Source: Peredibacter starrii
GTDB lineage: Bacteria > Bdellovibrionota > Bacteriovoracia > Bacteriovoracales > Bacteriovoracaceae
Assembly: GCF_034259205.1 (NCBI RefSeq)
Contig: NZ_CP139487.1
Coordinates: 3,782,001 to 3,846,000 of the forward strand
Direction: 5' to 3'
DNA: 64,000 bases
This document shows positions 4,586-28,026 of this stretch, one piece after another. The position numbers were made by a program, and so were the translations under genes. Numbering within the stretch: the first letter of the stretch is position 1; each line of letters opens with the position of its first letter. The notes under the pieces were generated by a model. That model saw only the letters and a list, made by a program, of their open reading frames with translations, was not told where the DNA came from and did no database searches.

Positions 4586-5251
4586 ATGTTTGGACGTAAG
4601 TATACTTTCGAATCAAAAACCACCAGACTACGCCGCTTAGCTTTAAGCGGCGTTTTTCTGGCGTGTCTCACGATCGCTCTTGTCGTTAGCTTTATCGTTT
4701 ATATTCCGATTTACGCTAAAATGCAGAAAGGTCGCGCGGCAGGTGCCTTCTTCCAGAAGTCTCCGGATGCTATTGCTGTATTTACAGGAGACAAAGGTCG
4801 AATTGCATACGCCATGGATCTTCTTAAAAAGAATCCTACGTCTAAACTATTCATCTCTGGGGTTCATGCTGCGAACTCGGTTCAAACGCTCATTAACAAG
4901 CAATCTAACGATTCTACAGCACCGGAAATTAACGATGCTGGAGTTCAGGTGGACCTGGATTATGAATCAAAGAATACTTTCGAGAATGTGCGTGAAACTG
5001 TTTCTTACTTGAAGGCCAATCCAGAGATTCAGAACGTGTTGATCATTTCAAGTGATTACCACATCATGAGAATTAAACTCATCATTGCTCACTTCCTATC
5101 GGGCTCAAAACAGCAGTTTTACTTCGATAGCGTGCCTAATACCTACACCACCTGGAAGGACACGAAGAAGCTTCTAAAAGAAGCGGTAAAGATCGTGAGG
5201 ACCTTCATTCAGTTGAAGATTTTTAGAGAAGATTTTGTAACTGAAGATTAA
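4586..5251 (+). CDS. SanA/ElyC/YdcF-like DUF218 membrane protein
   Basis: 221 residues. One transmembrane helix (about 20-45) anchors a soluble domain that is probably periplasmic. DUF218 features are visible: AIAVFTGDKGRIAYAMDLL, LFISGVH, the NTFENVRETVSYL segment and LIISSDYHIMRIKLI. Known relatives (SanA, ElyC, YdcF) affect envelope barrier function, peptidoglycan or undecaprenyl-lipid metabolism, though exact chemistry is debated. The start follows the ridA stop by two bases with no clear ribosome-binding site, so translational coupling is likely. The stop overlaps the stop of the convergent lipoprotein gene by 4 nt (TTAA). Confidence 0.85.
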   Translation: MFGRKYTFESKTTRLRRLALSGVFLACLTIALVVSFIVYIPIYAKMQKGRAAGAFFQKSPDAIAVFTGDKGRIAYAMDLLKKNPTSKLFISGVHAANSVQTLINKQSNDSTAPEINDAGVQVDLDYESKNTFENVRETVSYLKANPEIQNVLIISSDYHIMRIKLIIAHFLSGSKQQFYFDSVPNTYTTWKDTKKLLKEAVKIVRTFIQLKIFREDFVTED

Positions 5252-6060
5252 ATTACAAGTTCAGTCGCTGGATCAAACTGAGCAGGATCAATTGTGCTAT
5301 CAGTTTTGCAATCTAGCTCATATGGGAAATTAAATGTATTTGGCGTTCCACCATTGGACTTAATCGTACAGTAAGAACGATTGGCATAGTTGGTATACGG
5401 GTAACTCAAATTTGGAGGACTTGTTCTTCCAGTCATTACGTACTCATAAACTTCGGTTTTAGAAAGAGTGTCGTCTGACTCTTTATAAATCTTCTTTTCA
5501 CGTTTAAGTTTTCGTACGCCAAAGTAGCCAGGAAGATTGAAATCAAAAGTGTATGTCACGATGGGCTTGTAGTAAGTTTCCGAATCGTCAGAACCTTGGG
5601 CCTCTTCAATTTTTGCGGAAGCTGAAGTTGTACCATCAGAAACAGTGAGAGTCTTAGCGCATTTTTTTACTCTAAGATCAGCAATTAATTCCGAATTTGT
5701 CGTTGTATTAATTTTCAAAAAGCGATTCGTAGTAGAACCACCTTCGGTTAATGTCAGAAGAAAATAGGCCACACTACCAGTAACGTTCCAAACGCTGATA
5801 TATGAGGTTTCTATGACTGTATTATCTTTTTTATACTCATATTTCCAAGACTGGTGACGAAGCATATCGACCATCTTCTCATTGGAAAGAGCGGCGAAAT
5901 CTTCGTAATCTCTTTTTGAGTCTTCAAGACACTTAAGTTCACGTCGTTGACGAATAGCTTCCTGCTCGCCAGGGGTTAGCTCATTGAAAGCACGAATAGT
6001 CTCCTCTTTACAAGAAACACTAAGGAGCACCAATGAAGCAATCAGGATGAATGATTTCAG
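5248..6060 (-). CDS. Hypothetical lipoprotein, probable non-AUG start coupled to the upstream barrel gene
   Basis: I extend this gene to a CTG at 6060 (or the ATT codon just before it). The first conventional start, TTG at 6033, would leave only seven residues before the lipobox Cys and no basic N-terminus. From 6060 the protein is 270 residues and begins (M)KSFILIASLVLLSVSC, a good lipoprotein signal with the lipid-attachment Cys at 17. The CTG overlaps the TTC-TGA end of the frameshifted barrel gene, with a GGGGG run about 12 bases upstream, so reinitiation coupled to that gene is plausible. The mature protein is charged near its N-terminus (residues 20-50), later rich in Thr, Ser and Tyr, and has three further Cys. 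No family recognised. Confidence 0.65.
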   Translation of the reverse strand: MKSFILIASLVLLSVSCKEETIRAFNELTPGEQEAIRQRRELKCLEDSKRDYEDFAALSNEKMVDMLRHQSWKYEYKKDNTVIETSYISVWNVTGSVAYFLLTLTEGGSTTNRFLKINTTTNSELIADLRVKKCAKTLTVSDGTTSASAKIEEAQGSDDSETYYKPIVTYTFDFNLPGYFGVRKLKREKKIYKESDDTLSKTEVYEYVMTGRTSPPNLSYPYTNYANRSYCTIKSNGGTPNTFNFPYELDCKTDSTIDPAQFDPATELVI

Positions 6061-6871
6061 AATCTGTATCCCCCGCCAAGAGCATATACGATTACAGGAT
6101 CTATTGTAGCACCATTATCTTTTCGAGAGCTAATATTTAACGGCCCGCCATTCTGTTGAATTTTCGACTCAATTTTTCTCTCATTTAGGTCATAGCGAGT
6201 TTGAGTAATTCTTGTGTAGAAGAAAAATCCATTACTTGCAGTGAAGTTGGCCCGATACCCAGCTGAAGACTGGTTAATTGATCAGAAATCGACTGCTTGA
6301 AACGTTCATCAGTAGTATCAAGATCATAGCTGTAGTTCACGCTATTATAAGCACGTGCGATCCCAATCCCGGCCATAACAAAAGGCTCAACTGTCAGGTA
6401 AGTCCATTCGTCCATGAAAGGATTTTTGGTTTTCATATCAAATAAAAATCCCAATTGTTGTGAGGCCGTAGCACCCCAAACCTGGCCGGTTTTTTTTGTA
6501 TATGCGAATTCGGCATCATCATCTTCAGGTCCACCGTTAAGAACTTGCGAAAAAAGTGTTCCTAAATAATAGGCCTCAACAAGTGTGGTAGTAGTTATCT
6601 GATTACCCAAGTAAATTGATCCACCAAGCCCGAGACGAGCACCCCAAAGATCATTTTTCGTGGCGGCGAAATTCTTCTTCACCCCTGTAAAGGTATCGAA
6701 GTCCGCTCCATATCTCATTCCCTCAAATCCAAAAGTGGTCAGCCAATGACTCTTACGAGGATTGAATTTCAATTTATCATAGGGATTTTCAGTCGTAAGA
6801 ACCGCCAGGTCCTTTTCAGCGAAGGCAGAAACAGAGAAAACACAGAGAATGGCGAGTAATAATTTATTCAT
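6057..6871 (-). pseudogene. Outer-membrane beta-barrel protein gene with a frameshift near 6258-6260
   Basis: The first frame starts at 6871 with signal peptide MNKLLLAILCVFSVSAFA and reads through a barrel-like protein until about residue 210. It then runs into an unlikely C-terminus stopping at 6185. Adding one base at the GGG run (CCC on the + strand, 6258-6260) joins it to another open frame that continues alternating aromatic strands (LGYRANF, NGFFFYTR, QTRYDLNER) and ends YALGGGYRF before a TGA at 6057-6059. A terminal Phe after an aromatic pattern is the signal read by BAM for outer-membrane barrels. So the intact product would be about 271 residues. The break may be a sequencing or assembly error or a true mutation. 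A start at 6892 is possible but gives a worse signal peptide. Confidence 0.75.
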
Positions 6872-6916: not shown

Positions 6917-9118
6917 TTAAGCTCGGTTCACCGAAATGACTTCTTCCATCTGCTCGATGCTCGAGATTGTCTTAAGAAGCTCTGAGTAATCCTTCACTTC
7001 GATCTCGAAAATGAAGTTACCCTTTTGATCCGGCATCGATCGGGCAATCGCCGAACGAATATTGATGCCAGCGTTGTTAATTGACTTAGAGATTTTTGAA
7101 AGAATCCCCGGCTTATCGTGGGTCGTAACCTTAATGTTAACTGGGTGGCTGAACGTATAATGCTTGTTCCACTCAACATGGATCTGGCGACTCTTTTCGA
7201 TGTCTACAATTCGTCCGCAACCAATTGTGTGAACTGTGATACCACGGCCACGAGTAATGATACCTGTGATCGGGTCACCTGGAATTGGATTACAACAACG
7301 GCCCATCTTCACCATGATGTCATCAAGACCATCAACAATAACGGCGTTGTCATTACTGGTACTCTTGCGGGCAGTTTTAGCAACTTTCTTATAATAGCTT
7401 TCAAGTTCCTTATCATCTTCCTTGAAATCGAGTTCATCTGTTTCGGTGAACGCGATAGAAGGAATGGCAACCAGCACATCTTTAATTGGAAGGTGATTTG
7501 AACCAATGTTAACGAAAAGCTCTTCAAGCGTTTTGTAGTGGTTCTTTTCAAGGATTGGTTTGAACTCACCTTTTTTATCCAGGGCCTTAATCGAAGTTTC
7601 AAACTTCTTCAGGGCCTTCTCAAGAACATCTTCACCAAGGGTACGATGTTCATCACGCTCGACCTTCATGAGATACTGACGAATCTTCGTGATGGCACGA
7701 GAAGTCTTACAGATCTTTAACCAGTCTTTCGACGGAGTCTGAGTTTTGGATGTGAGAATTTCAACTGTGTCACCAGACTTAAGACGGTACTTAAGTGGAA
7801 CCATCTTACCATTTACTTTTGCACCTACGGTCTTGTTACCGACTTCAGTGTGAACGGCATAAGCGAAGTCCAGCGGAGTCGCTCCGTAGCGAAGTTCTTT
7901 TACGTCTCCAGTTGGAGTGAAAATGAATACTCCACCAACATCCAGATCGTTTTTCACAACGTCCATGAACTCAGAAGAGTTCTGAACGTTCTGGTTAAAC
8001 TCCATGAGTTCTTCGACCCACTTCAGTTTATTTACACCTTCGCCTTTATTTCTTTCTTTATACTTCCAGTGAGCGGCCACCCCGCGCTCAGCAACTTCAT
8101 GCATTTCAAACGTACGAATTTGAATTTCGATACGCTCGGCCTTGGGTCCAATTACCGTCGTGTGAAGCGACTGATAGTTGTTCACCTTAGGAATGGCAAT
8201 GTAGTCTTTGAAACGTCCAGGAACTGGCGTAAATGCTGAGTGAATAATACCCAGACACTTGTAACATTCAGTGATGTTATTAACGAGAATACGGAAAGCG
8301 AGCAAGTCTTGAATCTGCTCAAAATCCACTCCACGCTGCTGCATCTTTTTATAAATTGAAAAGAAGTGCTTCGGACGACCAGTAACTTCACCAGTTACCG
8401 AGTACTCGAGCATCTTTTCTTCAATCAGATTATGCGTCTCAGTGATATACGCTTCGCGCTCGCGCTTTTTCATCGCGATTTTTTCAGCGAGACGATAATA
8501 GATATCAGGATGAATATAACGGAGACATAAATCTTCTAGATCTGCTTTAACCGAGTTAATACCCAGACGAGAGGCCAGTGGAACATAGATATCCAAAGTC
8601 TCTTGCGCTTTCGCCTGCTGCTTCTCCTTCGTCATATACTGAAGGGTACGCATGTTGTGCATTCTGTCTGCGAGCTTCACGATAATTACGCGAAGATCCT
8701 GGGCCATTGCCACAACCATCTTACGAAAGTTTTCTGCTTGAGATTCTTCTTTGGTTTTAAATTTAATTTTAGAGATCTTCGTACAACCCACAACAATTTG
8801 GGCCACACTCTGACCGAACATCTTGGCGATGTCTTCCGGAGAAACATCACAATCCTCAACAGTATCGTGAAGCAGACCGGCCATGATGGAATCAAGGTCC
8901 ATTTTAAGTTTAATCAAAGTCGCCGCTACGTTAAGCGGGTGAATGATATAAGGTTCACCAGAAGAACGCTTCACCCCAGAGTGCATTTTATCTGCAAACT
9001 CAAAGCACTTACGAAGGATCGTCAGATCAGCTTCAGGCAAAAGCACTTCCGCACGTTTGACGAGTTCATCAATCGTAAGGTTTGCTTCATGGGAGAAATC
9101 AATTCTTTCTGCGAACAT
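6917..9118 (-). CDS. rel: Bifunctional (p)ppGpp synthetase/hydrolase (Rel/SpoT family)
   Basis: 733 residues with the full long-RSH order. The HD hydrolase domain (about 25-180) has LLHDTVED intact and KLADRMHNMRTL. The synthetase domain (about 230-350) has RFKDYIAIPKVNNYQSLHTTV and EIQIRTFEMHEVAERGVAAHWKYK. A TGS domain follows (about 385-445, FIFTPTGDVKELRYGATPLDFAY), then a linker with the CCNPIPGD(P) zinc-finger-like motif, and an ACT domain (about 655-730). The intact HD box supports hydrolase activity, so this is a Rel-type bifunctional enzyme that sets the stringent alarmone. It is the last gene of accA-yicC-gmk-rel, two nt after gmk. The rpoZ gene that often sits between gmk and spoT is absent. 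Confidence 0.96.
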   Translation of the reverse strand: MFAERIDFSHEANLTIDELVKRAEVLLPEADLTILRKCFEFADKMHSGVKRSSGEPYIIHPLNVAATLIKLKMDLDSIMAGLLHDTVEDCDVSPEDIAKMFGQSVAQIVVGCTKISKIKFKTKEESQAENFRKMVVAMAQDLRVIIVKLADRMHNMRTLQYMTKEKQQAKAQETLDIYVPLASRLGINSVKADLEDLCLRYIHPDIYYRLAEKIAMKKREREAYITETHNLIEEKMLEYSVTGEVTGRPKHFFSIYKKMQQRGVDFEQIQDLLAFRILVNNITECYKCLGIIHSAFTPVPGRFKDYIAIPKVNNYQSLHTTVIGPKAERIEIQIRTFEMHEVAERGVAAHWKYKERNKGEGVNKLKWVEELMEFNQNVQNSSEFMDVVKNDLDVGGVFIFTPTGDVKELRYGATPLDFAYAVHTEVGNKTVGAKVNGKMVPLKYRLKSGDTVEILTSKTQTPSKDWLKICKTSRAITKIRQYLMKVERDEHRTLGEDVLEKALKKFETSIKALDKKGEFKPILEKNHYKTLEELFVNIGSNHLPIKDVLVAIPSIAFTETDELDFKEDDKELESYYKKVAKTARKSTSNDNAVIVDGLDDIMVKMGRCCNPIPGDPITGIITRGRGITVHTIGCGRIVDIEKSRQIHVEWNKHYTFSHPVNIKVTTHDKPGILSKISKSINNAGINIRSAIARSMPDQKGNFIFEIEVKDYSELLKTISSIEQMEEVISVNRA

Positions 9119-18192: not shown

Positions 18193-20814
18193 ATGAAGCT
18201 CCTATCACAGGCCCTAATTTGGCTCGCAGTTATCAATCTTTCCGGTTGTGGAAAGATCACTGCTTCATTGACTGGTGGAGCACTGACCAGTTCTGCTCAA
18301 GTCTTCCCTATTGGTAACAAATTAAAAACTCCGCTCTTAAAAGATGCGACGATTATGGCGGATCAAAATGGCCAGATCGTTTTGACCGATACAGCTAATA
18401 ATCAAATGTTGGTCATTACTGAGGATGGTCAATTAACTAGTACCATCACAGGCACTGGAAATTTGATTGGACTCTCACTCGATTTATCAGGCTTAAGTTT
18501 GATTGCCTTTGATAAAACAACCTCGTCCATAAAGCGATATACTGCCGCTGGAGCAAATACTCAGACCTTCGGTTCGGCCGGCTCGCCAGTCACTATCAAT
18601 TATCAACCAATGGGAGTAGAAGAGGCCGCTGGTTATTATTACGTCTCCGATCAGTTGAACAACAAAATTCACAAATACGATTCACACGGTATTTACATGA
18701 CGAGCTTTGGGACTGGTGTTCAAGGTTCGGCCAATGGCCAATTTTATCTTCCGAGAAGTTTGAAAGTAGACATCGCAGGTAACATCTACATCGCTGACAT
18801 GCTTAATAGTCGCGTCCAGAAGTTTAATGCTGCCGGTTTGCATATACTCTCTTTCGGTAGCTACGGCTCAGGTAACGGCCAATTTGTTGAGCCTGTTAGC
18901 GTAGAAGTGGATGAAGGGAATGGAAATATCTATGTAACCGATTCTGGGAACGACCGCATTCAGGTTTTTGATTCTACCGGTACCTATGTTTCTCAATTTG
19001 GAGCAAGCGGTTCGGCCAATGGTCAATTAGACCTTCCCACTGGTATTCATTTTTCACCAACTTCAATTTTTGTGGCAGATGCAAATAACGGAAGAGTTCA
19101 AGAATTTGATTACTCTTGGGTACATCAAGCAAACTATGGAGCTCCAGGAACTGGTAACGGCCAGTTTTCATTCCCAGTTGAAGTGGCAACTGATGGATTA
19201 AATAACGTCTACGTCTCTGATTATAATAATTCCAACGTGCAAGTCTTTGATGAATTCGGAGCCTTCCAATATTCAGTTGGAGGAGATGGAACGAATCCGG
19301 ATCAGATGAATGAAACCGGTGGTGTTGATCTCGACCCACTTGGAAACATCTATGCTGCGGATGTTGGGAATGGTGAAGTCAAAAAATTTAACTCTTCTGG
19401 AGTCATTAAATATTTCGAACGTCCTCATACAGATCAGGCCACCGGCAAATTTTTGAATGCCTCCGATACCTGGGTTGATGGAGCAGGAAATATTTACGTC
19501 TTAGATAAAGGAAACTACCGCGTTCAAATCTTCGATTCGGCCGGTGTTTATCAAAAACGTTTTGGCCGCCAGGGAACTCTCGACTCTCAATTCTCAAATC
19601 CAAAATCTATTGCCGTCGATGGTTCTGGAAACATCTATGTAACCGATGGCAACAGAGTGAAAAAATTTGATCCAGATGGTGAGCCGATCCTTGCTTGGGG
19701 TACGACTGGTTCTGCCAATGGAGAATTTAATGGCGCTGGCGACATCATGATTGATGCCTCTGGAAATGTCTGGGTTGCAGACGAGAATAACGGACGAGTA
19801 CAAAAATTTGATACTTCCGGAAACTTCATCAATAAAGTTGGAGATTCAGGCTTCGCCAATGAACGTCTGAGTAAACCGACTTCTATCACTCTCGGTTATG
19901 GAAATGTCATGCATGTTTTCGATTCTACTAAACTTGAAATTTTTACTTTCGGTACGGTTGATTATGGTCTCGAAAGAAAGATTCAAAGCTTAAACAAGCA
20001 AGATGGCTCACTCTCTGGTCCGAATGGAGTTGCTTTTGATTCGACCGGCAACATCTACGTCGCTGATACTGACAACCATCGTATTCAAAAATTCAATTCA
20101 AGTGGAGTTCATGTCCAGGATATTGGCTCGTTTGGAAGTGGTGACGGAGAATTCAATAAACCGTCAGATATTGCCATAAACTCAAATGACGAAATTATTG
20201 TGATAGATGCTGTTAACAATCGTGTTCAACGCCTATCAACTGATGGGACCTTTATTGGCAAGTTTGGTACGGCAGGAACTGGTAATGGAGAATTTGATTT
20301 GCCCCTTCAGCTGGAGATAGATGCCAGCGATAATATTTACGTTGCCGATACCTACAATCACCGCGTTCAAAAATTTGATAGCTCGGGAACATACCTTTCT
20401 CAATTTGGAGGCTGGGGTTCAGCGAATGGCGATCTTAAAGAGCCAGGTGGTATTGCATTTGATGCTCTTGGAAATGTCTACGTTGCTGACTCAGGAAACA
20501 AACGAGTTCAGAAATTTGATTCTACCGGAGCTTACGTCGATCAATTTGCACCAGCAAGTTTTGAAGAAATCACTGACGTCGCCGTGGATTCATCCGGAAA
20601 CATTTACGTTACAGACTCGGCCAATATCAATGTCCAAAAGTTCAACTCGAGCTTTGCTCCGGTCCTCTCATTCGGAACTCCAGGCACGAATTATAATCAA
20701 TTTGGTAAACCGGTACGTGTGGATGTGGACGCCAGCGGAAATGTCTATGTCGTCGACACTGGAATGGCCCGCGTTCTAAAATTTAGCTCTACTGGCACTC
20801 CTCTCACGAAATAA
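18193..20814 (+). CDS. NHL-repeat lipoprotein (beta-propeller)
   Basis: 873 residues. The signal MKLLSQALIWLAVINLSGC ends in the lipobox LSGC, so the mature protein is lipid anchored. Nearly the whole chain is tandem NHL repeats of about 45-47 residues with the core pattern GNIYVAD...N.RVQKFDSSG.Y...FG..G..NGQF..P..I.VD. By eye there are at least 15 units, enough for two or more six-bladed propellers. Repeats in the middle (GNIYVADTDNHRIQKFNSSG, GNVYVADSGNKRVQKFDSTG) are nearly identical, suggesting duplication. NHL propellers bind proteins or other ligands; the surface location suggests a binding or adhesion role. No catalytic domain is fused. tRNA-Leu follows 67 nt downstream. Confidence 0.9.
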   Translation: MKLLSQALIWLAVINLSGCGKITASLTGGALTSSAQVFPIGNKLKTPLLKDATIMADQNGQIVLTDTANNQMLVITEDGQLTSTITGTGNLIGLSLDLSGLSLIAFDKTTSSIKRYTAAGANTQTFGSAGSPVTINYQPMGVEEAAGYYYVSDQLNNKIHKYDSHGIYMTSFGTGVQGSANGQFYLPRSLKVDIAGNIYIADMLNSRVQKFNAAGLHILSFGSYGSGNGQFVEPVSVEVDEGNGNIYVTDSGNDRIQVFDSTGTYVSQFGASGSANGQLDLPTGIHFSPTSIFVADANNGRVQEFDYSWVHQANYGAPGTGNGQFSFPVEVATDGLNNVYVSDYNNSNVQVFDEFGAFQYSVGGDGTNPDQMNETGGVDLDPLGNIYAADVGNGEVKKFNSSGVIKYFERPHTDQATGKFLNASDTWVDGAGNIYVLDKGNYRVQIFDSAGVYQKRFGRQGTLDSQFSNPKSIAVDGSGNIYVTDGNRVKKFDPDGEPILAWGTTGSANGEFNGAGDIMIDASGNVWVADENNGRVQKFDTSGNFINKVGDSGFANERLSKPTSITLGYGNVMHVFDSTKLEIFTFGTVDYGLERKIQSLNKQDGSLSGPNGVAFDSTGNIYVADTDNHRIQKFNSSGVHVQDIGSFGSGDGEFNKPSDIAINSNDEIIVIDAVNNRVQRLSTDGTFIGKFGTAGTGNGEFDLPLQLEIDASDNIYVADTYNHRVQKFDSSGTYLSQFGGWGSANGDLKEPGGIAFDALGNVYVADSGNKRVQKFDSTGAYVDQFAPASFEEITDVAVDSSGNIYVTDSANINVQKFNSSFAPVLSFGTPGTNYNQFGKPVRVDVDASGNVYVVDTGMARVLKFSSTGTPLTK

Positions 20815-27501: not shown

Positions 27502-28026
27502 TTACTTTTTCTTCGCTGCTTTTTTGGCAACTTTCTTAGCTGGAGCTTTCTTAACTGCTTTCTTAGGAGCGGCCTTCTTAGCTGGAGCTTTCTTAACCGC
27601 TTTTTTAGGAGCAGCTTTCTTTGTAACTTTTTTAGCGGCTTTCTTAGCAGGAGCTTTCTTCGCTGCTTTTTTAGCAACTTTCTTTTCAGCTTTCTTAGCA
27701 GGTGCTTTCGCAGCAGCTTTTGGAGCTTCTTTTTTCGCAGGAGCGGCTTTCTTAGCTACTGGAGCTTTTGCAGCAGGAGCTTTCTTTTCAGCTTTAGCTT
27801 TAACTGGTTCTTCTTTCGGAAGATCCGGCTTATCTACAAGCTTCTGATACTCAACAAGCATTTCGTGGAAGAAATCCCAAGATTCTTCTGGCTTAAGAGT
27901 CGCAAGACGAGCTTTGTATTTTTCCCATAGGGCCAGGTCTTTATTCTTAAACTGACCTACTAGGTAGTGACACTTTTGAGTTAGATTTTCCTTATGATGA
28001 TCAGAAATCTCTTTTGGAAACGTCAT
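27502..28026 (-). CDS. Histone H1-like, lysine/alanine/proline-rich DNA-binding protein
   Basis: 174 residues. The N-terminal 80 residues form a small acidic/helical domain (SDHHKENLTQKCHYLVGQF, WDFFHEMLVEYQKLV). The C-terminal 95 residues are low complexity, made of KKAAKKAPAKKA-, KKAVKKAPAKKAAPKKA-type repeats, 40-50 percent Lys. This resembles H1-like proteins (Hc1/Hc2, AlgP-type tails) that bind DNA or RNA nonspecifically. The repeat length is prone to change by slippage or recombination. It is convergent with CheB. The tail encodes false open frames on both strands which I do not call. Confidence 0.85.
   Translation of the reverse strand: MTFPKEISDHHKENLTQKCHYLVGQFKNKDLALWEKYKARLATLKPEESWDFFHEMLVEYQKLVDKPDLPKEEPVKAKAEKKAPAAKAPVAKKAAPAKKEAPKAAAKAPAKKAEKKVAKKAAKKAPAKKAAKKVTKKAAPKKAVKKAPAKKAAPKKAVKKAPAKKVAKKAAKKK

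Follow-up and report, generated by a model that had tools for sequence, protein, structure and literature searches.

Among described outer-membrane proteins, the membrane domain of OmpA, the N-domain of OprF, NspA and OmpW are the closest in predicted architecture to the protein considered here, sharing with it an eight-stranded barrel and an aromatic C-terminal end. Such an aromatic end is the signal in outer-membrane barrels that is read by BAM, and small barrels are often missed by sequence models. A second useful comparison is with coupled gene pairs that have a 4-nt overlap; in a study covering gene pairs of Haloferax volcanii and E. coli, coupling was reported to be almost abolished at distances of about 20 nt, and pairs encoding subunits of complexes to be enriched in short overlaps (PMC10666635). 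Finally there are the frameshifted genes of bacterial records, be they pseudogenes or consensus errors, in which a single break leaves an otherwise whole gene one base short while its relatives are intact, and this is also the situation at the present locus.

The gene in question lies in a stretch of 64,000 nucleotides (here called the window) and is present once in the source genome, a single contig of 4.15 Mb that is listed as 98.44% complete with 3.33% contamination. Very probably it is a conserved small OmpA-like eight-stranded barrel gene, heading a unit of two genes of which the second encodes a lipoprotein; in this record the barrel gene's phase falls short by one base near the end of strand 6 (Table 1).

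Table 1. Features of the barrel locus, in window positions.
Feature	Positions	Strand	Remarks
Whole barrel gene, broken	6057..6871	minus	Signal peptide (by eye) and predicted eight-stranded outer-membrane barrel, with a change of frame inside
Frame A, 228 aa	6185..6871	minus	Signal peptide and strands 1-6, followed by some 21 out-of-frame residues before the stop
Frame-change interval	6248..6281	minus	Homology favours the 3' end, adjoining 6251
Frame B, 74 codons	6057..6281	minus	Strands 7-8 and terminal GGGYRF; no ATG, GTG or TTG inside
Conserved lipoprotein gene	5248..6060	minus	Probable start CTG 6060-6058, overlapping the barrel stop codon; match in 22/26 distinct relative loci
Upstream neighbour gene	6917..9118	minus	Presumably of Rel/SpoT type; upstream in 22/26 distinct relative loci

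Frame A starts at ATG 6871 (from which its length is counted) or possibly at ATG 6892, carries at its N-terminus what was judged by eye to be a signal peptide, and ends in ...STQELLKLAMT, a C-terminus without barrel character. Frame B, the phase of which is one base short of that of frame A, is open throughout and finishes in YALGGGYRF. An earlier note on this DNA had proposed just such an arrangement, namely a barrel gene split by a frameshift, with a non-barrel end at 6185 and a second frame continuing to a terminal Phe, which if rejoined would give a barrel of about 271 residues ending at 6057, and all of this is borne out. The site of the change, near 6250, is the one detail that differs: the same note had chosen the GGG run at 6260-6258, while alignment puts it immediately past 6251, next to the second GGG (6253-6251).

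That the two frames are halves of one gene is most directly seen from its relatives. In blastp searches, frame A aligns with relatives as far as about residue 207 (best E 1e-77). Frame B aligns with the very open frames of those relatives that frame A hits, and does so through to their last residue (best E 1e-16). The likeness exceeds chance for both. Within the genus the matches mostly end near window residue 207 (main matches from 200 to 214), while the relatives' own frames run on. The barrel gene was found in 24 of 25 other genomes of the genus (25/26 with the source genome counted) and in 28 of all 58 genomes searched, again counting the source genome. When the loci were compared individually, setting aside one partial locus (L034) and counting 26 distinct ones, a single uninterrupted frame was found to cover both halves and to end at the frame-B terminus in 24, with GGGYKF as the C-terminal sequence in the same proportion (24/26). 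The most distant two, L031 and L032, match only the frame A half, are also continuous, and end in Trp rather than Phe. Not one of the 26 ends at the frame A stop, which together with the conservation of the continuous frame answers the comparison with homologues that the earlier note had called for. Since the relatives have one continuous frame, the ancestral gene will also have been a single frame, and the window is the exception. One of the relatives, L007, has an insert rich in Pro and Glu that separates the signal peptide from the barrel (L007:1303-2259), which the window and its nearest relatives do not have; the longer open frames of several other relatives may contain the same insert.

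In order to place the fold, an alignment of six intact relatives together with frame A (7 sequences in all) was used as input, with the intact relative L023 as target. The resulting model, in which confidence is moderate (mean pLDDT 69.8), has eight strands, after two broken strands are joined. Its top match in VIA-align is the OmpA membrane domain (1bxw, Z 14.4, 2.6 A over 168 residues), and other matches include OprF (Z 14.2), NspA (13.9), OmpW (13.2-12.6), a Legionella porin and a Thermus protein; in Foldseek that Thermus protein is the best match (E 1.7e-4), and the TM-scores are low (0.42 for 1bxw/OmpA by query length). The intact relative is thus predicted to be an eight-stranded outer-membrane barrel of the OmpA membrane domain kind, and it carries a signal peptide as judged by eye and, for the copy in the relative G003, by a crude rule as well. 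On this model the break, located at about residue 206, coincides with the end of strand 6. The product of the window's gene, the frame A of which holds only strands 1-6, would therefore lack strands 7 and 8 as well as the terminal Phe, the aromatic end being present in frame B only.

Unlike the OmpA, OprF, NspA and OmpW barrels, however, this one is followed by an overlapping lipoprotein gene and gives no usable sequence match: Pfam, NCBIfam and PHROGs yielded none for barrel or lipoprotein, a sequence profile search of PDB chains, made for the barrel only, matched no barrel, and a literature search by title found nothing concerning this barrel gene. Three weak hits were taken as chance, namely Phage_TAC_9 (E 0.2) and a ribosomal protein in the PDB (E 0.28) for the barrel, and NF045973 (E 0.033, with a relative's lipoprotein) for its partner. 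The broken gene is, then, a copy of a conserved, unnamed and otherwise ordinary-looking small barrel gene.

The lipoprotein gene overlaps the barrel gene in much the same way as in coupled pairs with a 4-nt overlap. Its start overlaps the barrel stop as NTGA in 15 of the 26 distinct loci (with TTG as start codon in 14 of these and CTG in L015), a conserved stop/start overlap of the sort that marks a translationally coupled pair; in a further 6/26 the open frame of the lipoprotein extends back over a TAA or TAG barrel stop, and in 5/26 the overlap was not seen. The window differs from coupled pairs of this type in two respects: its overlap reads TTCTGA, as does that of L015, giving CTG as the start codon, and its effective stop, that of frame A, comes about 124 nt before this CTG. 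Between 6060 and 6033 (minus strand), CTG (or ATT/ATA) is all that is available as a start for the full signal peptide; the first in-frame ATG, GTG or TTG is the TTG at 6033, and starting there would leave the signal peptide without its basic N-terminal end. A fold prediction for the lipoprotein reached a mean pLDDT of only 57.2, too poor for a structure search.

If the break is present in the cell, one would expect a product that, having neither strands 7-8 nor the C-terminal signal, would not be assembled by BAM and would be degraded. Ribosomes would also stop well short of the non-canonical lipoprotein start, and poor synthesis of the lipoprotein is consequently to be expected; given the distance of some 124 nt, the lipoprotein is therefore probably lost too.

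The principal question is whether the missing base is missing in the cell or in the consensus alone, and here the evidence is nearly even, with a very slight lean towards the cell. A loss-of-function mutation that is real and recent in this strain, switching off the barrel and, through lost coupling, the lipoprotein, has about an even chance of being correct, and the main evidence for it is that evolution of the stretch after the break has been faster than expected in this lineage. On a fixed tree, the window's frame B branch is 2.7 times that predicted from frame A, the largest excess of 24 taxa and one reached in none of 300 simulated alignments (p 0.003, a per-taxon value uncorrected for 24 taxa, the window being the taxon asked about). 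Taking the Rel neighbour as yardstick, among the 19 relatives that have both neighbours, the window's branch takes up 0.016 of the tree length in Rel, 0.055 in frame A, 0.123 in frame B and 0.030 in the lipoprotein. There are clear caveats, however. The unbroken L013 is also unusual in the same simulations (p 0.013), the unbroken L028 has a frame B share of 0.121, close to that of the window, and by an alternative scaling L007 exceeds the window, while part of the frame B excess lies in a variable loop. Furthermore, a null allele should relax both halves of the gene, yet at strongly conserved columns the window deviates at 2/37 in frame A, which is ordinary, and at 3/12 in frame B, where no other taxon deviates at more than two; the ordinary behaviour of frame A fits poorly with a long-dead gene.

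As the downstream frame is free of stops and still shows its barrel pattern, the break probably happened recently on the scale of the tree. Two further measurements could nevertheless mean that decay has gone on for longer than the word recent implies: frame B resembles its relatives less than would be predicted from frame A (mean z -1.13, the second lowest of 27 rows), and codon scores fall after the break. Relatives fall there too, 4/23 of them as much, so that the codon scores are little guide to decay of frame B. For the identity comparison the duplicates L022-L026 and the partial L034 were left out and relative pairs were limited to those with an A identity of 0.25-0.70; the tree tests additionally left out L030 (partial) and the very distant L031 and L032.

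Only a little below an even chance stands the possibility that the lesion exists in the genome record only, as an uncorrected one-base omission from the consensus, the living cell having a whole barrel gene. Much of what points this way comes from a count of similar breaks, for which 1.458 Mb of the source genome (G000) were compared with 1.4 Mb of G003. Among 980 conserved G003 genes with a match, 4 have an interior break in G000, and all four of these, sorted by eye, are one base short in phase, as against none in 1000 genes in the reverse direction by the same by-eye judgement. The 4 were kept from 11 raw candidates. Of the others, q33, q332, q862, q984 and q1103 were dropped because they lie upstream of where the gene probably starts, q557 as an upstream stretch with stops and q1024 as look-alike domains, while of 10 raw candidates in G003 none was kept, 8 being upstream stretches and two (q320 and q589) repeat or multi-domain look-alikes. 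Interior stop codons, sought in a smaller sample with alignment ends excluded, numbered 0 in 691 genes of G000; the corresponding check of G003 gave 11 stops in 2 of 700 queries (536 and 866), which were taken as spurious reading frames in G000.

The three other breaks lie in stretches with longer runs (the longest being A9 in one, G5 in another, and T5 with C4 in the third), and in one nanopore assembly deletion errors were reported to be associated with homopolymers of two to eight bases, in most cases four to five (PMC12007338). This pattern, like the barrel pattern and the lack of stops in frame B, speaks for a record error. In the barrel gene, however, the interval 6281-6248 contains just two three-base runs, shorter than those at the other breaks and in this respect unlike them, and an error of consensus would leave no such trace as the branch excess described above. 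The kinds of gene affected speak for the reading as a real mutation, in that two of the four meet the crude rule for a signal peptide (a rule met by 248/980 genes) and a third appears by eye to have one.

The three other broken genes lie outside the window (at 3280354-3280414, 3854542-3854557 and 2853345-2853369 of the genome, each one base short) and comprise, in that order, a TPR-plus-barrel protein (the barrel judged by eye), a small protein in which a signal peptide can be made out, again by eye, and a protein of 816 aa that we take to be DNA ligase D-like.

A more ambitious reading would make the barrel and lipoprotein an undescribed two-part outer-membrane complex, kept in step across the genus by the stop/start overlap, and the break an adaptation (for instance to phage or to prey contact) by which one base change switches both off in this strain, other surface genes being broken likewise; this seems rather unlikely. 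Programmed -1 frameshifting, which would join both frames into a whole barrel, must be judged very improbable: the -1 frame is indeed that of frame B, in which the barrel pattern is kept, but there is no X XXY YYZ heptamer in frame A over 6320-6230, the fold after the site is no better than that of shuffled sequences (z 0.75, 155/200 as good or better), and the relatives examined, at 26 distinct loci, use one continuous frame, so that no shift site is conserved among them. Equally slight is the chance that two separate genes are present, frame A encoding a shorter but complete protein and frame B another, for despite the ordinary rate of frame A at its conserved columns, six strands without a terminal Phe do not make this barrel, no relative locus stops where frame A does, and frame B, containing no ATG, GTG or TTG, could hardly be translated on its own. 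A phase-variable run, also raised in the earlier note, finds no support, as neither a long homopolymer nor a short tandem repeat was found within 6281-6248 and the relatives' frames are continuous.

Whichever account of the missing base is correct, a gene call made from this record would mislead: the barrel would be cut short, and the lipoprotein would have a clipped signal peptide. Frame breaks of this kind are common; the more lasting point is that an unnamed pair of barrel and lipoprotein genes is conserved in a genus of bacteria related to the Bacteriovoracaceae and lies outside the family libraries tried.

Two other features of the window may be recorded briefly. At 27502-28026 (minus strand) there is a protein with a long Ala/Lys/Pro repeat tail, which presumably resembles the histone H1-type proteins of bacteria, and at 18193-20814 (plus strand) a long lipoprotein-like protein made up of repeated beta-propeller units, which we take to be NHL-like.
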